Shown in pieces: positions 1-8,707 of a stretch of 8,707 bases of DNA. The translations under genes were made by a program, and so were the position numbers. The number at the start of each line of letters is the position of its first letter. The stretch's first letter is position 1. The stretch is from an uncultured Coprococcus sp. (lineage in GTDB: Bacteria > Bacillota_A > Clostridia > Lachnospirales > Lachnospiraceae), in the NCBI GenBank assembly GCA_900767685.1, contig CAAGAB010000021.1, positions 1-8,707 of the forward strand, in the 5' to 3' direction. The notes beneath the pieces were generated by a model, which was given only the letters and a program-made list of their open reading frames with translations, was not told the DNA's origin and did not search any database.

Positions 1-1343
1 GCACCTATGACGCTACTCTCCTTCTCTATTCCATGTACGACGAATACCGATATGACATATGTGAACAGGAGCATGAGCAGCACACCGAAGAAGTATCCCG
101 CCTGCACATTGATCTGCTGATCATCAGCGGCTCCGCCTGTTCTTGGGTTGTCGTCACTTGTCACAAATGATGTGATGTTGGCAAGTTCCGTGTCATAATC
201 CTTCAGAAATGAATCAGTCTCCTTCTTGAGTTCTGCCATTCCATCTGCAAGTTCATCTGAGCCATCCTTTGCCTCTGCAGCTCCATCGGTATACTCCTTA
301 ATACCGTCCTTGAATGCCTTGATGCTGTCGATGTCACTCAGAGCGCTTTCGATACTCATCGCCACTACTCCGCCCTGGCTGTCGGCAATCTTCTTCATCT
401 CGTCACTGTAATTATCCTCTGTGAGTTCTGTGTCAAGACCGAACGCTGACAGAGACGAAGCTGCCTGCTCAAGATATGCATCAAACAGCTCCTGTGCCGC
501 ATTGTTTAGCTTTCTGTTGTTGTCAGTAAGTTCTCCGAGTCCATCTGCAAGCTCATTTGCACCTGACTTAAGTTCCTTTATGCCATCCTTGAAATCATTT
601 ATAGCTGCACCAGTTCTATCCCAGTATTCCTGGAAATACTCATCATCTATTCTGTCTGTATCAACCTTAATGTCCTCAAGAGCATCCTTCACGTCATCAC
701 AAGTGGTCTTGCCCTTAAGTCTGAACGCATACAGATAAGTCTCCGTCTTGACGCTCTCGCCTGTCGAATGAAGTTTCTCATATGCGTTCTCTGTGACAAA
801 TACTGTTCCAAACACCTTGCTGTCGACAACTGTATCTGACATCTCCTTGAAAAGCGCATTATAATCAGGTGATGTTCCTATTCCTGTCACCTCGAATTCA
901 TTTCCTGCTATCTGTATTGTATCTCCGACAGAAATATCATTTACCTGGCTGAATCTCTTCTCGATGGCTATCTCATCATCAGCCTCCGCAAGTCTTCCCT
1001 CATCACATTCCACAAGATCTATGTTCTCCCTGTTGGCAAATACCCTGATAATCTTGCCATCCATGACATCATAGTCCTCGTAGAACATCTGCTCAACCTC
1101 AGTACCCACATCCTCAATCCGGGATATCTCATCATCTCTCAGTGGAACGAATACGGAAAACTGACCATCCTCTATCTTATTTGCCTCGTCATGTGTCTCG
1201 CCATTGTCAATGATCGTATATCCGGCTCCTATCAGTGAGACAATGACGTACATACCCATGATGATAAGGAATGCAAGTGCTATGTATCTGAACACATTCT
1301 CCTTCAGATCCCTCAGAACCCTTTTTCTCAAAATCTTCTGCAT
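1..1343 (-). CDS. FtsX/MacB-type ABC transporter permease, C-terminal part beyond the window
   Basis: Membrane subunit of the transporter powered by the ATPase just upstream. The ATG at 1343 follows GGAGG (1357-1353, 9-base spacer) that lies inside the end of the ATPase gene, and only one base (1344) separates the two genes, so translation is probably coupled. The 447 residues present contain a basic N-terminus (MQKILRKRVLRDLKEN), TM1 at about 20-41, a long extracytoplasmic MacB-like region at about 42-420, and the start of the next TM block at about 421-441 (core GVLLMLLFTYVISVFVV). The outer region carries two similar helical stretches, each starting FKDGIKE (residues 251 and 344) and rich in spaced DG and LADG units. 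The gene runs off the left edge; family members usually have further TM helices and a second FtsX domain. The substrate cannot be read from the sequence. Peptides, lipids or drugs are all possible, and a resistance or envelope-stress role is only a guess. Confidence 0.88.
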   Translation of the reverse strand, partial: MQKILRKRVLRDLKENVFRYIALAFLIIMGMYVIVSLIGAGYTIIDNGETHDEANKIEDGQFSVFVPLRDDEISRIEDVGTEVEQMFYEDYDVMDGKIIRVFANRENIDLVECDEGRLAEADDEIAIEKRFSQVNDISVGDTIQIAGNEFEVTGIGTSPDYNALFKEMSDTVVDSKVFGTVFVTENAYEKLHSTGESVKTETYLYAFRLKGKTTCDDVKDALEDIKVDTDRIDDEYFQEYWDRTGAAINDFKDGIKELKSGANELADGLGELTDNNRKLNNAAQELFDAYLEQAASSLSAFGLDTELTEDNYSDEMKKIADSQGGVVAMSIESALSDIDSIKAFKDGIKEYTDGAAEAKDGSDELADGMAELKKETDSFLKDYDTELANITSFVTSDDNPRTGGAADDQQINVQAGYFFGVLLMLLFTYVISVFVVHGIEKESSVIG

Positions 1344-3060: not shown

Positions 3061-4332
3061 TTATTTCTTATACATATCGCTATAAATCCTGTCTATAGTC
3101 TCATCGCGACTCAATTTATCATACAGATAATAATCAGAATCAGATTTAAATGATCCATACACATCCTCAGATTCTAATATTGGTGCCATAACCGACAATT
3201 TGTCGCTGTTTTCTTTTCTCATAGCATCTGCCTGGACCTCAAATCCAGTCAGCATATCATGCTCATCAAGAACAGCAAGTGCCGAGCTGCTGATTGGAAC
3301 ACCTTTTTCTGTTTCCTGCCTTAAAGTCATCTCCTCACTGTTCAACAGATAATTTAGCAGCTTTGCGGCCTCCTCTGGGTGTTCAGTATTATTACTTATT
3401 GCATACATTGTTGCAGGTTTTACAAACCAACCTAACGATTTTGCGCCAGGCTCACATATGTATCCGCCTACTTTTACATCATATCCATTTTCCTTCAAAG
3501 GATCACAATATCCTCCTGCATCACTTACCCACGCAAGAGTGCCGCCAACCTCACCGCTGGCAAAAGAATTCCTGTTAAATGAATCTACAGACATTAATAC
3601 TTTTTTATCAAGCAGTTCCTTATAAAAATCCAGCAGCTCACCTATCTGTTTCCTACTCAGATTCAGCGTACCATCAGACTTGACCGGATCGTTTCCGGTT
3701 GTCTGTATATAATGTGAAAGCAGCATAAAAAATAATGATTTTTTAGTCATGCCCAGAGGATATACCCCATCTTTGCTCATGATTCTGGCTGCATCAAACA
3801 AGTCATCCCATGTTCTGGGAATACTTAGTCCATATGAGTTCCACAGAGTCTCATTATAATAAAAGGTCTCAGTATTGAACGCAATAGGAATAGCATTTAA
3901 TCTTCCATTTTTTGTTCCAAAGGCAAGTTCTTTTTCAGTATAATTTTCGAAATCAATATAATCCGAAAGCGTATTAAGATCATAAAAACCAGATCCGTCA
4001 GAAGAATATATGTCAAGCCAGCCATAGTTTATGAGCATAACATCAGGAGTCTCCTGAGACTTCATGTATATGTGCTGCCTGTTCTCATATCCATTCCACA
4101 CACCATATTCGCATTTGACGTTTATTTCTGGATTTTCTTTTTCAAATATATCAACAGCATCCAGCGTGTACTGATTTCTACTATCATCGCCCCACCAGGA
4201 ATATTCTAAAGTTATCGTATCCCCGACAGCCATATCTGTCTTTTGCTCTCCACAACCACAGAATACCAAAAGCATAAAAAGCATCATCAAAACCGACAAT
4301 CCTCTTTTGTGATTTTTAATTATATGTTTCAT
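3061..4332 (-). CDS. Sugar-type extracellular solute-binding lipoprotein (family 1, 423 aa)
   Basis: Predicted lipid-anchored binding protein on the outer face of the membrane, related to the MalE/UgpB group (COG1653) that binds oligosaccharides for CUT1 transporters. The N-terminus has a basic stretch (KHIIKNHKRG), a hydrophobic core and a lipobox ending FCGC, with Cys27 the likely lipidated residue. The mature part begins with the typical strand and loop LEYSWWGDDSRN, followed by VDIFEKENPEINVKCEYG, TPDVMLINYGWL, IPIAFNTETFYYNETLW and PRTWDDLFDAARIM, all characteristic of this family, and a C-terminal helix block with HPEEAAKLLNYLLNSEE. An in-frame GTG at 4341 exists, but it lies within the ribosome site AGAGGTGA (4345-4338), so the ATG at 4332 is preferred. 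The gene starts 15 bases after the diguanylate cyclase and has no permease or ATPase beside it, suggesting a sensory rather than transport role (inference). The ligand is unknown. Confidence 0.93.
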   Translation of the reverse strand: MKHIIKNHKRGLSVLMMLFMLLVFCGCGEQKTDMAVGDTITLEYSWWGDDSRNQYTLDAVDIFEKENPEINVKCEYGVWNGYENRQHIYMKSQETPDVMLINYGWLDIYSSDGSGFYDLNTLSDYIDFENYTEKELAFGTKNGRLNAIPIAFNTETFYYNETLWNSYGLSIPRTWDDLFDAARIMSKDGVYPLGMTKKSLFFMLLSHYIQTTGNDPVKSDGTLNLSRKQIGELLDFYKELLDKKVLMSVDSFNRNSFASGEVGGTLAWVSDAGGYCDPLKENGYDVKVGGYICEPGAKSLGWFVKPATMYAISNNTEHPEEAAKLLNYLLNSEEMTLRQETEKGVPISSSALAVLDEHDMLTGFEVQADAMRKENSDKLSVMAPILESEDVYGSFKSDSDYYLYDKLSRDETIDRIYSDMYKK

Positions 4333-4337
4333 CTGCT

Positions 4338-4345
4338 TCACCTCT
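4338..4345 (-). promoter_or_regulatory. Ribosome site that decides the lipoprotein start
   Basis: AGAGGTGA on the minus strand, 5 bases before ATG 4332 and just after the cyclase stop (4350-4348). The alternative GTG start at 4341 falls inside this site and would have no ribosome site of its own. Confidence 0.75.
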
Positions 4346-4347
4346 GA

Positions 4348-5841
4348 TCAGTCCTGATTTTCAACGAACCAGCTATACTGACTTTTCCCGTTTCTCTTTG
4401 ATTTATACAAAGCCGTATCAGCTTTCTTCATCATGCTTTCATAATCAGATGAGTTCTCTCCGTCTACGATGTAAACACCTGCTGATAATGAAAGATTACA
4501 TTCTGTATACTGTTCTGCAATCGTTCTGGCAAAATTCTCAGCCAACAGTCTAAGCTCAAATTCCATCTTCTTTTTTACATTTTCCAAAGTCCATCCATTA
4601 AACTTCCTGTATACAACAAACTCATCGCCGCCTACCCGTCCGATCACGGAGTCTGCTCCAAGCATTTTGGTGAAAAGTTCAGCAGTTTTAGACAGAACCA
4701 CATCCCCCTCTCCATGACCCAAAGTATCATTTACCTTTTTAAAATTATCCATATCTATCATAATAAAAACATGAGTGACTGTTTCAGACTTTTCATCAAG
4801 ACAGGATCTAACAACTTCTCCAAACGAAGCTTTATTCATAAGTCCTGTAAGCTGATCATATTCAGCCTTTTGCTTTAATTCCTCAATAGCTCCGGAAACA
4901 GGTGTATATATTCTTTTCAAAACAATACTTCCTGTCACAACAACCAATAAAACCAGCACGAAAGTTGCTACAAATGAATACAATTTCAATCTCCCGACTT
5001 CTTTGAATATCTCAAATTCACTTATATATGACACTACTCTCCAGCCATTTGAACAATGCGCTACGGATATGACATATCCATCCGAATTTGTCTGATATTC
5101 GGAATCGTCATTTTCCTTTGAAAGATTCACCTCAATTTTTTCTCCAACGCATTTTGCATTATTTGAATACACAACTTCCTCGGAATCATTTATAAGACAC
5201 ACCCTCATATCCTTGAGTTCATGACTTAAATTCACCACTGAACTTAGTTCCCTGCTATAGAAGGAAGTTACGATAACAGCATTTTTATTAAGTTTCTTGA
5301 CATAGAAAAGCCTATCTGGACTGTTTAAATAATCAAAAAACCAACCGGACATTGTCTTCTCGTCATTTATATGTCCGGTAAAATATGTATATATTCCTCC
5401 ATCCGGAAAAGCCTGAAGTGTTGTGTTGGAAATCCATCCCACGCTCTTGTCATTGGAATATACAACACCAAAATCTGTAAAATTGTCAAACACGCCAAGA
5501 TCACTTATCCTATTCTGAATAGCCGCTTCCTGCTGTATTCTAGTGAATTCATCCAGACTATCATCTGTGGCGTCATACTCACACAGCTGATCATCAGAGA
5601 AAAAAAGAGCCACATTATCTTCTATACCAACAAGATAATTGTCGACATTGTATCCAAGCTGTTGGTTATTAGATGATATCAGATTCACTATCTTGCTTCT
5701 CATATTATCAACTGCCTGTTTTGTTATGATAAAAGATATCATACCTGCCGTGGCAACGACAGCAGCCAGGAAGATGATAACAAATCTCCTCCTGGCTCTT
5801 TTTATTTCATATTCAGTTCTGTTCCTGCTGCTCACTGACAT
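4348..5841 (-). CDS. Membrane diguanylate cyclase with extracytoplasmic sensor domain (497 aa)
   Basis: Makes c-di-GMP from two GTP. Numbered from the ATG at 5841: TM1 at about 19-41, an extracytoplasmic region of about 245 residues (42-286, the size of a double Cache sensor), TM2 at about 289-309 and a GGDEF domain at about 326-491. The catalytic domain is complete: DQLTGLMNKASF, metal-site IDMDNFKKVND (Asp363), GHGEGD, RVGGDEF (GGDEF at 404-408), LSAGV and KKADTALYKSKRNGKSQY. The inhibitory I-site RxxD is absent; the aligned stretch is GADS. The longer start at 5868 lacks a ribosome site and would coincide with the expected transcript start; the ATG at 5841 has a G-rich site (5855-5850). 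The lipoprotein gene 15 bases downstream may supply the signal sensed outside the cell (inference). Both genes look AT-richer than those around them. Confidence 0.93.
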   Translation of the reverse strand: MSVSSRNRTEYEIKRARRRFVIIFLAAVVATAGMISFIITKQAVDNMRSKIVNLISSNNQQLGYNVDNYLVGIEDNVALFFSDDQLCEYDATDDSLDEFTRIQQEAAIQNRISDLGVFDNFTDFGVVYSNDKSVGWISNTTLQAFPDGGIYTYFTGHINDEKTMSGWFFDYLNSPDRLFYVKKLNKNAVIVTSFYSRELSSVVNLSHELKDMRVCLINDSEEVVYSNNAKCVGEKIEVNLSKENDDSEYQTNSDGYVISVAHCSNGWRVVSYISEFEIFKEVGRLKLYSFVATFVLVLLVVVTGSIVLKRIYTPVSGAIEELKQKAEYDQLTGLMNKASFGEVVRSCLDEKSETVTHVFIMIDMDNFKKVNDTLGHGEGDVVLSKTAELFTKMLGADSVIGRVGGDEFVVYRKFNGWTLENVKKKMEFELRLLAENFARTIAEQYTECNLSLSAGVYIVDGENSSDYESMMKKADTALYKSKRNGKSQYSWFVENQD

Positions 5842-5872
5842 GGCATCTGCCCCCCATGTTATATACATAGCT

Positions 5873-5905
5873 ATTATATAACAACTATTATTGGTAAATT
5901 GTCAA
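5873..5905 (-). promoter_or_regulatory. Possible promoter of the cyclase-lipoprotein pair
   Basis: On the minus strand a perfect TTGACA (5905-5900), overlapping the stop codon of the PTPS-like gene, and a perfect TATAAT (5878-5873), but 21 bases apart, longer than the usual 17. TATATA (5880-5875) would give 19. A start near 5866 would leave a leader of about 25 bases to the ATG at 5841. The pair may thus be transcribed on its own as well as by readthrough from region A. Confidence 0.4.
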
Positions 5906-6360
5906 TCTTTTTTCTCAATATTCCGGCTCTGCTTTATTTCTTTCAATATCCTGTCCGTCAGAGAATTGATGGTCTGCATCTCTTCGGTGTAACTGTCATC
6001 AATGAGACTAACCACATAGGACATGGACGGCGACTCACTCATCTCCATCATCAGGAATATCCAGCCGTTTCTGTTGAGTATTTCGGTCAGCTCATCCTTG
6101 AAATACTCACACATATTCTCAAGTGTGGGATTTATCATGTCAAACGGAGCAATCTCATTCAAAGTCTTGTCCTGATACCTGTTCAGAAATTCTTCAACTC
6201 TGTGCTCCAGATGATGGAACTTCACAGTCTCGTCCTTTCCCTTGACGACATTTATGACTATCTCCCAAGTGTGGGGATGAACCTCCCCGAGTACTCCATT
6301 TTTATATATTCCATGTCTGGCATTGAGGTAGAATTTGAATTTGTATTGTCTGAATCTCAT
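5902..6360 (-). CDS. 6-pyruvoyl-tetrahydropterin synthase-related protein, XrtG-locus type (152 aa)
   Basis: Small cytoplasmic T-fold protein resembling PTPS/QueD. Visible family marks: FYLNARHG with His16, HPHTWEI with His28 and His30 (the three usual zinc ligands; HPH replaces HGH), NPTLENMCEYF (77-87, the PTxEN motif) and SESPSMSY, where Glu109 fits the pterin-anchoring glutamate. The catalytic triad is broken: the Cys expected four residues before His28 is Leu24, and the Asp-His pair appears as Asp64-Lys65. A normal synthase reaction is therefore unlikely. It matches, from memory, TIGR03112, a family of unknown function found with the exosortase-G-associated glycosyltransferase. ATG 6360 overlaps the upstream stop (ATGA) and has GGAGGAG (6375-6369). 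A ligand-binding role is an inference, and a guanine-containing nucleotide is one candidate. Confidence 0.85.
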   Translation of the reverse strand: MRFRQYKFKFYLNARHGIYKNGVLGEVHPHTWEIVINVVKGKDETVKFHHLEHRVEEFLNRYQDKTLNEIAPFDMINPTLENMCEYFKDELTEILNRNGWIFLMMEMSESPSMSYVVSLIDDSYTEEMQTINSLTDRILKEIKQSRNIEKKD

Positions 6361-7427
6361 CTGTTCGTCTCCTCCCCGTAGAACACCTTTCTCGGATCAT
6401 CGCCGTCTGTGACAGTCCTGAGTTCTGTTCTAATCTCGACCCCCGCTTCATTTGCCGAGGTTCTTTTCCAGCTTTCAAGCATCTTATCACGTATCTGTTC
6501 AGCCGTTGACATATCTGTCATATACATAAGCACAGCAAAATTGCCTTTTGAGATTTCTGCGGTTACATGGTTAGACTTCATGCTGCCCTTTATGAAATCC
6601 ATTATCCCGAATATCTCATCTCTTGAAAAATAACGATCTCCCATCTGAACACTTATGAACAAGAAAGTAATCGGATAAAGCTCCGGATCTGTCGATTTTG
6701 AGAGCAGTGAGTCCACAACCTCCATATCGTAATATCTATCTGATCTTTTATCTGCAGGCTCAATATCCTTCTGCCTTAACTCTTCCTCATAACTTTCTGT
6801 AAATCTCTCATATTCATCGAATTTCTCATTTCTCGCTGCAAGTTCTGCTTCAAGTCTTCCGACTTTTCTGCCCATATGTCCTATCCTGCCGGCAAATTCT
6901 ATCACCATACCGCCAAGGATGAGGAAAACTGCTATCACAGCTATTACGATATAGAATTCAAAATCATTCACTCCGTATGCCGAGAGCACATACGACCTGT
7001 CAGCATATATCCCGACAACGTAACCAGATCCAACGATAGCTGTCGCACTGACTATTCCCTTCTGCTTGCTCATATATTCGTCCAGACCTGATGCAGTCAT
7101 GTTAGACAGTTCCGCCGTGGTTGCCGCATCCTTAACAAATATGATATCATCCCCTTTTATAAGGAACACCCATTCCGAACCGGATACATCAACTACTTCA
7201 TTTATGACTGACTCCATATCTTTCTCGCTCAAACCTTCCAGTCTCTCAGCAAAAATAGATACCGTCTGCAGCTGGTCGTCCTTATACGCTGAAAGGATGT
7301 TGTCTCTATTGGTCTTCATGTGATAACCATAGTATATGGTTTCCAGAGCTATCATGAACAGAACAACAGCAAAAGCTGCCACTACTCGTCCTCTATATGT
7401 CTTATTCTTTTCAGCTTTCCTGCTCAT
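6357..7427 (-). CDS. Two-TM membrane protein with coiled coil and degenerate GGDEF domain (356 aa)
   Basis: Numbered from ATG 7427: TM1 at about 15-35, an extracytoplasmic domain of about 120 residues (36-156, possibly a single Cache/PAS-like sensor), TM2 at about 158-178, a charged coiled coil at 186-222 (GRLEAELAARNEKFDEYERF) and a C-terminal domain at about 230-345. The last domain follows the GGDEF layout: DRYYDMEVVDSLLS fits the DxLTGLxNR start, YPITFLFISVQ the metal-site strand, and EISKGNFAVLMYMTDMSTAEQI the GGDEF strand and next helix. The motif itself is SKGNF (293-297), the metal-site Asp is missing, and no RxxD precedes it, so cyclase activity and classical I-site binding are not expected. 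It overlaps the glycosyltransferase by 17 bases, has AAGGAG (7441-7436, 8-base spacer), and shares ATGA with the PTPS-like gene. A receptor or scaffold that gates the glycosyltransferase is the likely job (inference). Confidence 0.8.
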   Translation of the reverse strand: MSRKAEKNKTYRGRVVAAFAVVLFMIALETIYYGYHMKTNRDNILSAYKDDQLQTVSIFAERLEGLSEKDMESVINEVVDVSGSEWVFLIKGDDIIFVKDAATTAELSNMTASGLDEYMSKQKGIVSATAIVGSGYVVGIYADRSYVLSAYGVNDFEFYIVIAVIAVFLILGGMVIEFAGRIGHMGRKVGRLEAELAARNEKFDEYERFTESYEEELRQKDIEPADKRSDRYYDMEVVDSLLSKSTDPELYPITFLFISVQMGDRYFSRDEIFGIMDFIKGSMKSNHVTAEISKGNFAVLMYMTDMSTAEQIRDKMLESWKRTSANEAGVEIRTELRTVTDGDDPRKVFYGEETNR

Positions 7428-8707
7428 GACATTTTCTCCTTCCTGTCACCTTGTACACCAATCTTCCAAGCCAGCGGAAGTCATGCTTTATGATGCTCCA
7501 CGCCGTCTGTCTCTCCTCGCTGAAATTCTGCATTTTCCAGCTTCCCTTAGACTTCATGGAGTTGATTATTCCTGCAAATCTAAACCAGAACACGACAAAG
7601 TTGTACAGAGGAAGCAGGAATACAAGATACCATTTTCTCATGTAATATCTTCTGAGCTGTTTAAACTGACTCAGAAACAAACTTATGCATATATACAGCA
7701 GTGTTGTGGTAAAAACATACAGAAGATACATGATTATGACTGAATCTATGATGAGCGTAAACGGATAATCCTGGAATATACCAAGGCATATCAGCGCAAA
7801 GTACCATATCATACGCGGGAATGCAAATGTATGATCGAACATAACCAATCTCACAATGAAGTCAGAGAAGAATCCGCGCACGGCGTTCATCCTGTTCTTC
7901 ATGAACATGTGAACAACCTCTATCTCTCCCCTCTGCCATCTCTGTCTCTGTATATATAGTCTGTTCATATCCTCTATCGGATCGACATAGAATATTGCTT
8001 CACTGCACAAAGCTACCTTGTCTCCGAGCACATCCCTTATCTGAAACGTTACATGCGTATCCTCGCACACGGTATCCGTGTTGTACATATTTGTCTTCAT
8101 GATGGTCGAACGTCTGAACGCTGAGAAAGCACCTGACAAAGTGAATATATTGTTGAACTCCGACTGGAAATTCCTGCCAGCGAGAAACGCCTGACAGTAT
8201 TCAAAGAATTCCAGTTTTCTAAGCAGTCTGAGTCCAAATCTGTCAGTATCATCGACCATTTCAGGGTTGGTCATGATCGTTCCGGTCATGCAGTCGATGT
8301 CAGGATTTCTCTCGAATTTGGTCACCATATTCCTGATGGCATCCCTCTGAAGCACACCATCGCTGTCTATGTGTATGATATATTTGCCGTAGCTGTTGAA
8401 AAGTCCCAGATTGAGAGCCTTTGATTTTCCCTGTCTTGAATTTACCCAGTTCATTGTAAGATCAGGAAATTCCTCCTGACATTTGCAGAATACGTCAAAG
8501 CTCCTGTCCGTGCTCATATTATTTACAACAAGTATATATATCTTGCTGTTTGGATAGCTTGACGCATCTATAGAGCTTATACATCTGTGAAGGCTGTGCT
8601 CCTGATTGTATACAGGTATGATAAGTGTTATCTCCGGTGAGAAGTTGATCGCATTCTCCTTCCTTGACACAAGCTTCTTCTTTATCAGTATGAAGAAATT
8701 GCATATA
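7411..8707 (-). CDS. Membrane family-2 glycosyltransferase, exosortase-G-associated type, 5' end beyond the window
   Basis: Processive-type glycosyltransferase predicted to make or extend a surface polysaccharide from nucleotide sugars at the membrane. The frame is open to the right edge, and the codons before GTG 8670 encode a hydrophobic then basic stretch (ICNFFILIKKKL), so the true start and an N-terminal TM lie outside; the GTG lacks a good ribosome site. Numbered from that GTG: TLIIPVYNQE (15-24, GT-A start), VVNNMSTD (48-55), QGKSKALNLGL (80-90), DSD (102-104, metal and sugar nucleotide), CED (202-204, general base) and QRQRW (241-245, the QxxRW motif of cellulose and hyaluronan synthase-like enzymes). 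Membrane segments follow at about 283-299, 305-332 and 348-370. No PilZ domain is seen, so c-di-GMP control would need a partner protein. From memory it fits TIGR03111, glycosyltransferases beside the exosortase homologue XrtG. Confidence 0.92.
   Translation of the reverse strand, partial: ICNFFILIKKKLVSRKENAINFSPEITLIIPVYNQEHSLHRCISSIDASSYPNSKIYILVVNNMSTDRSFDVFCKCQEEFPDLTMNWVNSRQGKSKALNLGLFNSYGKYIIHIDSDGVLQRDAIRNMVTKFERNPDIDCMTGTIMTNPEMVDDTDRFGLRLLRKLEFFEYCQAFLAGRNFQSEFNNIFTLSGAFSAFRRSTIMKTNMYNTDTVCEDTHVTFQIRDVLGDKVALCSEAIFYVDPIEDMNRLYIQRQRWQRGEIEVVHMFMKNRMNAVRGFFSDFIVRLVMFDHTFAFPRMIWYFALICLGIFQDYPFTLIIDSVIIMYLLYVFTTTLLYICISLFLSQFKQLRRYYMRKWYLVFLLPLYNFVVFWFRFAGIINSMKSKGSWKMQNFSEERQTAWSIIKHDFRWLGRLVYKVTGRRKCHEQES

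Follow-up and report, generated by a model that had tools for sequence, protein, structure and literature searches.

A membrane sensor with a degenerate GGDEF fold between a glycosyltransferase and a PTPS-like protein in a probable XrtG / Firmicu-CTERM cluster

What is the role of a membrane protein with a degenerate GGDEF domain that is encoded between a family-2 glycosyltransferase and a relative of pterin enzymes? The question is raised by a DNA stretch of 8,707 nucleotides (the window), in which three such genes overlap. XrtG clusters are already recognised by annotation models, and the cluster is thus known but unexplained; no paper giving a mechanism for it was found in the literature searched. 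What is new here is that in some relatives the sensor, termed psG, is fused to a PTPS-like domain instead of a dead GGDEF domain. This sharpens a vague question, namely why a relative of pterin enzymes adjoins an exosortase.

Gene layout and cluster membership

The initial annotation had described three genes with overlaps of 17 and 4 bases and had named TIGR03111 and TIGR03112 as families of the two outer ones. All three genes were found on the minus strand, and the overlaps are real and the same in a congener, G002 (Table 1). Running both models on the window, a check proposed at the time, gave 616.2 bits for the glycosyltransferase (GT; cut-off 363.95) and 143.4 bits for the PTPS-like protein (cut-off 69.35), and the family names were right. 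The dN/dS values between the window and G002 were 0.055 for GT (the 431 codons available), 0.25 for psG and 0.039 for the PTPS-like gene, indicating purifying selection on all three.

Table 1. Positions of the features in the window; a full stop marks a stretch given without strand.
Feature	Position	Strand	Evidence or remark
GT (XrtG-associated family-2 glycosyltransferase, TIGR03111)	7411..8707	-	profile match, motifs, dN/dS
psG (356-residue membrane sensor whose GGDEF domain is degenerate)	6357..7427	-	model, dN/dS
psG residues 37-152, extracytoplasmic Cache-like sensor domain flanked by two transmembrane helices	6972..7319	-	
psG residues 230-353, degenerate GGDEF fold	6369..6740	-	
SKGNF, at the psG hairpin position of GG(D/E)EF in active enzymes	6537..6551	-	model and alignment
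PTPS-like protein (TIGR03112, 152 residues)	5902..6360	-	profile match, residue counts, dN/dS
GT/psG overlap, 17 bases	7411..7427	-	same length in G002
psG/PTPS-like overlap, 4 bases	6357..6360	-	same length in G002
Stretch common to the window and G002, 94.9% DNA identity	5897..8707	.	ends just past the PTPS-like stop codon

The window is best read as holding the 3' portion of an XrtG / Firmicu-CTERM cluster from a bacterium of Lachnospiraceae type; it stops inside GT, before XrtG. In G002, which is 95% identical over window positions 5897-8707, a second TIGR03112 gene, a Firmicu-CTERM gene and XrtG lie directly upstream. XrtG (TIGR03110) scored 215.4 bits in G002, where it adjoins GT, and 215 bits in the related locus L001, which likewise has XrtG and Firmicu-CTERM upstream. 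Firmicu-CTERM was detected by TIGR04145 (cut-off 50) at 146 bits in L001 and 61.3 bits in L018, and in G002, where only a custom profile was used, at 259 bits.

Among 150 genomes of the family (a draw made by XrtG, and independent except for its centre, G002), TIGR03110, TIGR03111 and TIGR03112 exceeded their cut-offs in the same eight, including G002, and in 8/8 the three genes adjoin one another. Gene order and presence in related loci were counted with a six-frame profile scan. A set of 38 loci was found via the PTPS-like protein, so that its presence in them is not independent; among the profiled genes, XrtG was followed by GT in all 36 loci that hold both. The Cys, Arg and His of XrtG were kept in 37/37 rows. 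L054 and L035, whose contigs are of equal length, are apparently the same contig, a single MAG is the source of both L001 and L002, and L038 is unrelated. The relatives have XrtG and Firmicu-CTERM upstream, usually with an adjoining GT-C-type membrane protein (PF10131), a family counted in the GT-C clan (PMC7801869); a sequence-only PDB search with the PF10131 protein gave nothing usable. The earlier proposal of an XrtG-type locus with conserved gene order was thus supported, and its surface polysaccharide or glycoconjugate role fits such a locus. Compared with the XrtG / Firmicu-CTERM cluster as defined by TIGR03110, TIGR03111, TIGR03112 and TIGR04145, the window has GT and the PTPS-like protein over the family cut-offs, but carries psG as an extra sensor gene between them and lacks PF10131 at its 3' end. 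For the XrtG system of L. plantarum, only CTERM, XrtG and two glycosyltransferases are listed (PMC12854382).

The reading frame of GT is open to 8706 and runs past the right window edge, the TIGR03111 match starts at profile position 40, and the G002 homologue has 461 residues with a hydrophobic N-terminus that corresponds to sequence past the edge; the GTG at 8670 is therefore not the true start. GT carries D-S-D, E-D and QRQRW, invariant in 12/12 aligned relatives, which we take to be the DxD, ED and QxxRW motifs of processive-type membrane family-2 synthases. Judged by these intact motifs, GT is probably such a synthase. It shares them with the poly-GlcNAc synthase PgaC/IcaA, the second-best NCBIfam family, but its score there (131 bits) is far below the PgaC cut-off of 422.

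The membrane sensor and the c-di-GMP question

The label 'pseudo-GGDEF' given earlier to psG could not be demonstrated by profile searches, where no Pfam or NCBIfam family exceeded its cut-off, but was upheld by the predicted fold. A sequence-only PDB search gave nothing usable. The model (pLDDT 80.8, pTM only 0.46) has a GGDEF fold, for which the Foldseek rows include PelD (4etz), and the best alignments of the ectodomain are to sensor domains that bind ligands. The GG(D/E)EF motif was found in none of the 32 aligned rows of psG homologues (SKGNF in the window), and neither was the RxxD primary I-site (KSNH in the window, RPVE in L006 and L007), although alignment at the latter position is poor in the seven remotest rows. 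Six of the eight XrtG genomes gave psG matches above 45 bits, at the XrtG locus, as against at most 24.1 bits in the other 142.

By its predicted fold psG is a GGDEF-fold membrane protein encoded beside a glycosyltransferase, and in this it resembles PssE (pssA-E EPS operon of Listeria), YdaK (B. subtilis) and PelD (B. cereus), EPS regulators that are degenerate GGDEF membrane proteins of glycosyltransferase operons. It differs from these in lacking RxxD, a site that YdaK and PelD reportedly require, in its Cache-like ectodomain and in lying beside XrtG and PTPS-like genes. The gts operon of L. acidophilus (PMC6123363) similarly brings together a GT2 synthase, a membrane partner and a protein with a degenerate second-messenger domain, but its receptor is a degenerate EAL protein.

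Neighbouring genes were scanned for a GG(D/E)EF-type motif, because single-sequence phmmer was insensitive (it scored the GGDEF/EAL protein of L059 at 11 bits or missed it). The motif, in a scan blind to degenerate domains, occurred in 0/47 loci; these differ in length and are not all independent, and many have truncated flanks. The GGDEF/EAL gene of L059 lies two genes upstream of its PF10131 gene, and the protein scored 50.7 (GGDEF) and 190.5 bits (EAL) by Pfam.

In the window, an intact GGDEF diguanylate cyclase is encoded 33 bases downstream, occupying the place of PF10131 in L001. An operon that also includes the cyclase and solute-binding-protein pair was weighed but rejected: the match to G002 stops at 5897, and in L001 and L002 this place is taken by PF10131. 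The terminator scan gave no hit, so read-through into the cyclase is possible. By eye, a TTGACA at the PTPS-like stop is followed 21 bases on by a TATAAT, outside the scanner's spacing; it was noted as speaking against the cyclase in the operon.

These observations bear on the reading that the cluster encodes a polysaccharide synthase switched by c-di-GMP, psG being a receptor like PssE, YdaK or PelD and the adjacent cyclase a source. The GGDEF fold and the PelD match, the processive-type GT, the nearby cyclase, the GGDEF/EAL protein near the L059 cluster and the many GGDEF genes in genomes of the genus are consistent with it, but RxxD and GGDEF are absent throughout the aligned psG rows, no locus of the 47 has the motif, the window cyclase is at neither the G002 nor the L001 locus, and psG is missing from 17/37 related loci; we consider it unlikely. 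The c-di-GMP link drawn in the initial annotation gained no support from these counts. By motif, fold and neighbourhood, c-di-GMP control of the cluster is not supported, while binding by another mode is possible. Control by c-di-GMP need not follow from the presence of a degenerate GGDEF protein next to a glycosyltransferase.

A proposed control path

In six of the 37 related loci (L008-L012 and L014) the sensor part of psG is fused to a PTPS-like domain in place of the dead GGDEF domain, the same Cache-TM-coil segment being joined straight to the PTPS-like domain. The output is thus more likely to be the PTPS-like domain, with the dead GGDEF domain as a dimer platform or spacer. The explanation that we favour, at about even chances, is that psG is a one-component sensor that controls a surface-glycan synthase via a PTPS-like adaptor. 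GT would build a surface glycan, and the Firmicu-CTERM protein, sorted by XrtG, may carry or anchor it. The Cache-like domain would read an extracellular ligand, and the second transmembrane helix and the coiled coil would relay the signal to the GGDEF domain, itself catalytically dead, and from there to the PTPS-like adaptor, which would switch GT; this path does not require c-di-GMP. Whether the PTPS-like domain switches the glycosyltransferase becomes testable through the conserved sensor and its fusions to that domain.

A more specific version, rather doubtful and offered tentatively, is that the PTPS-like zinc fold was recruited as the output of a one-component receptor, so that the Cache signal would directly control an exosortase-coupled glycan synthase. 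The dead GGDEF domain would then be a relay in whose place other lineages have put the PTPS-like domain itself, and a pterin- or purine-like PTPS ligand could be a second input independent of c-di-GMP.

Several results count against the favoured explanation. The cluster can work without psG, as its absence from related loci implies, and a Thr/Ser-rich stretch that is strong in G002 is missing in L001 and L002. Moreover, L014, L030, L032, L033 and L037 gave weak matches to the psG profile, at 46-74 bits and mostly in the N-terminal part, so some 'psG' may share the sensor half only.

The overlaps and fusions make a three-part membrane complex of GT, psG and the PTPS-like protein, as proposed earlier, plausible. 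They would also suit a psG that is mainly a structural subunit holding the synthase and the PTPS-like protein, its Cache-like and GGDEF folds being relics without sensing. Consistent with this, divergence is faster in psG than in the adjoining genes (identity to L001/L002 of 53-54%, as against 87% for GT, and the higher dN/dS). However, the ectodomain resembles ligand-binding sensor domains, and the PTPS fusions retain it while dropping the GGDEF part, which makes a mainly structural role distinctly unlikely.

Residues of the PTPS-like protein

The PTPS-like protein exceeded the cut-off of PF01242 (56.8 bits) but stayed below those of the enzymes, with 35.6 for TIGR03367 (QueD; cut-off 89.25) and 19.6 for TIGR00039 (cut-off 125.5). 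A single-sequence PDB search gave chance matches only, and a profile search found PTPS entries.

Residues were counted in the ORF-caller set plus the window and G002; the downstream copies of L011, L016, L017, L032, L036 and L038 and the upstream copies of L006, L010, L016, L025, L027 and L036 are omitted. H16, H28 and H30, presumably the zinc-binding histidines of the PTPS type, were kept in 58/58 rows. No Cys lies between H16 and H28 in any of the 58; we take this column, set by the 2oba alignment, to be the catalytic cysteine of PTPS enzymes. Two further columns presumably form their catalytic Asp-His dyad: the Asp column is Gln in all 34 downstream copies, and the His column is Asp, Asn, Ser or Glu in these 34 and His in 2/24 upstream copies. 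The C-terminal pterin-type pocket glutamate is kept in 34/34 downstream copies. The family thus shares with PTPS and QueD enzymes its PF01242 membership, the H and HxH histidines and the pocket glutamate, but has lost the catalytic Cys and the dyad.

The retained glutamate means that the PTPS-like proteins could still be enzymes, which again counts against the favoured explanation. An active enzyme with altered residues, making a pterin- or purine-derived cofactor or a sugar modification with psG only as its membrane tether, would fit the kept histidines and glutamate, the PF01242 match and the low dN/dS, but is improbable given the missing Cys, the replaced dyad columns and the QueD score.

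Three overlapping genes of an XrtG-type cluster

The XrtG-associated glycosyltransferase (GT), the middle protein (psG; predicted to comprise a Cache-like ectodomain, transmembrane helices, a coiled coil and a degenerate GGDEF fold) and the PTPS-like protein are encoded on one strand. The window ORFs overlap by 17 bases (GT/psG) and 4 bases (psG/PTPS-like), as the initial annotation had described. In NCBIfam, the GT matched TIGR03111 at 616.2 bits (cut-off 363.95) and the PTPS-like protein TIGR03112 at 143.4 bits (cut-off 69.35); the runner-up family for the GT, PgaC/IcaA, scored 131.4 bits, under its cut-off of 422.3. For psG no family was above cut-off in Pfam or NCBIfam. The TIGR03111 match begins at profile position 40, and the homologue in the closest genome found (G002) has an extra hydrophobic segment at its N-terminal start; the window GT is thus truncated at the right edge.

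Coordinates of the features in the window and in related loci
Feature	Position	Strand	Remarks
PTPS-like gene	window 5902-6360	minus	ORF
psG gene	window 6357-7427	minus	ORF
GT gene	window, ends at 7411, open at right edge	minus	ORF
Transmembrane GGDEF cyclase and solute-binding lipoprotein-like gene	window 3061-5868		motif intact, without RxxD
FtsX/MacB-like permease	window 3-1343, cut by left edge		X-X-X-Leu-X-X-Gly heptad repeats; TIGR03057, 40 bits
C-terminal FtsX permease piece	L043:8899-9546	minus	XrtG locus of G002
YfhO-family membrane protein	L053:5708-8308	minus	602 bits
GT-sulfatase fusion	L024:5972-8896
PAS-GGDEF-EAL protein	L059:15265-17379	minus

Protein identities between the window and G002 were 98.6% (GT), 89.6% (psG) and 97.4% (PTPS-like), with dN/dS values of 0.055, 0.25 and 0.039, respectively. 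By these values all three look like genuine genes under selection. The DNA identity was 94.9% across window positions 5897-8707, and similarity breaks off there. Upstream, G002 encodes a TIGR03112 protein (92.3 bits), a 451-residue match to a profile for Firmicu-CTERM, the putative XrtG-sorted protein, built in this analysis, and XrtG (215.4 bits). A contig scan with the window PTPS-like protein yielded 38 loci, mostly labelled Lachnospiraceae. In L001, whose PTPS-like protein is 91% identical to that of the window, the order is TIGR03112, Firmicu-CTERM, XrtG, GT, middle protein, PTPS-like, PF10131 (a GT-C-type membrane protein) and TetR. With both window families above cut-off and XrtG upstream in relatives, the placement in an XrtG-type locus was borne out, and the window genes almost certainly belong to such a cluster. 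The MAG SUG1695 holds two versions of the entire cluster (L001 and L002; PF10131 proteins 82% identical), which are either paralogues or mixed strains.

Conservation of the cluster

Gene order was scored with locus-derived profiles on six-frame translations of the 38 loci. Among the profiled genes, the GT came next after XrtG in 36/36 loci holding both; the remaining two are L011, whose contig is 3.4 kb long, and L038, with a distant PTPS match only. Of 37 related loci, 14 encode the middle protein separately, 6 (L008-L012, L014) have it fused with the PTPS-like domain, and 17 lack it; in 14 of these 17 the order differs, PF10131 being upstream. A second sample comprised 150 genomes of the family, drawn around G002; in it TIGR03110, TIGR03111 and TIGR03112 were above cut-off in the same 8 genomes; TIGR03112 matched below cut-off in 2 further genomes and TIGR03111 in all 150, as with other GT2 enzymes. 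The GT adjoins XrtG and a PTPS-like gene lies downstream in 8/8. Conservation of gene order, a check set by the initial annotation, was thus found in both samples. psG lies between GT and PTPS-like gene in six of the eight (L043, L054-L058); a YfhO-family protein takes its place in L053, and no gene does in L059. A search with psG alignment A2 gave 45.9 to 516 bits in 6/8 XrtG genomes, always at the XrtG locus; six genomes in the rest of the draw matched, all at ≤24.1 bits.

The GT motifs D-S-D, E-D and QRQRW, the signature of processive membrane synthases, are present in the window and invariant in 12/12 aligned relatives, and the XrtG residues Cys, Arg and His are kept in 37/37 rows. In L024 a sulfatase-superfamily domain (PF00884) forms one polypeptide with the GT, and the GTs of L032 (969 residues) and L034 (979 residues) are about as long. 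At their C-terminal end, most Firmicu-CTERM proteins have a short motif (S/T-T-G or S-S-G, for example), then a hydrophobic stretch followed by basic residues. Those of G002, L006, L007, L019, L031, L036 and L044 contain a strongly Thr/Ser-rich stretch, which is lacking in L001 and L002. PMC7801869 places PF10131 in the GT-C glycosyltransferase clan.

The neighbouring cyclase and the question of c-di-GMP

The window cyclase begins 33 bases past the PTPS-like stop codon, which is overlapped by a promoter-like stretch, and is followed by the solute-binding protein (SBP) and TetR. The corresponding place in L001 and L002 is occupied by PF10131, flanked by the PTPS-like gene on one side and, on the other, by a TetR fragment that shares 87-90% identity with the TetR of the window. 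In G002 the FtsX piece directly follows the PTPS-like gene, as if the stretch between them had been deleted, and PF10131 was not found in this genome. A further genome, G003, has a shortened cyclase-SBP pair (43-47% identity) near 839 kb, well away from the XrtG locus of that genome (1.33 Mb). Judged by these positions, the cyclase-SBP pair more probably just neighbours the cluster in the window than forms a conserved part of it.

The initial annotation had also proposed a link to c-di-GMP; no sign that psG binds it was seen. At the hairpin where active enzymes have GG(D/E)EF, psG reads SKGNF, and both GG(D/E)EF and RxxD are missing in 32/32 aligned rows, including the window; the RxxD place, which reads RPVE in L006 and L007, is poorly aligned in the seven most distant rows. 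PssE, which has RxxD, is reported to bind c-di-GMP, and altering RxxD is reported to abolish either YdaK-dependent EPS production or the binding by PelD of B. cereus (PMC4125290, PMC5422440 and PMC7112168); psG differs from these in lacking RxxD. No GG(D/E)EF-type motif was found in ORFs of at least 150 residues in the 47 loci examined, with a scan that does recover the window cyclase. Two observations point against a c-di-GMP-free reading: a PAS-GGDEF-EAL protein in L059, two genes upstream of the PF10131 gene on the same strand and the sole GGDEF-domain neighbour found among related loci, and, in L037, an ORF about 7 kb downstream that contains an EAL-like motif. psG may bind c-di-GMP by another mode.

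PTPS-like domains as candidate output

Residues were counted in 34 downstream and 24 upstream PTPS-like copies, with the Asp-His dyad columns placed by alignment to 2oba. Compared with PTPS/QueD, the histidines are kept (H16, H28 and H30 in every copy), no copy has a cysteine between H16 and H28, and the dyad columns are altered: downstream copies have Gln plus Asp/Asn/Ser/Glu, and the second place is His in 2/24 upstream copies. The C-terminal glutamate is present in 34/34 downstream and 10/24 upstream copies (Asp in 13). Judged by these residues, the proteins resemble domains that bind a metal and a ligand but lack the known catalysis; they might have some other catalysis.

The most telling clue comes from the fusion loci, where the Cache-TM-coil part of psG continues into the PTPS-like domain instead of the GGDEF domain. 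This points to the PTPS-like domain as the true output, which would signal on to the GT. The analysis shows which genes are present and how they are ordered, their predicted folds, that the motifs of GT and XrtG are intact, that GGDEF, RxxD and the PTPS catalytic residues are lost, and that fusions occur. Beyond this, we infer that psG would detect an extracellular ligand, the PTPS-like domain would relay the signal, and the GT would produce a surface glycan attached to the protein that XrtG sorts. We consider this reading as a whole evenly balanced between right and wrong. Among the matches listed in the open-access literature, no description of psG or of a sensor-PTPS fusion was found. A second type of PTPS fusion occurs in the cluster, the upstream PTPS-like domain being joined to PF10131 in L014, L053, L055 and L058. 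For P0024, which is closely related to the PTPS-like proteins and 228 residues long, an additional PF13545 domain is listed; it may be a chimera or a further fusion.
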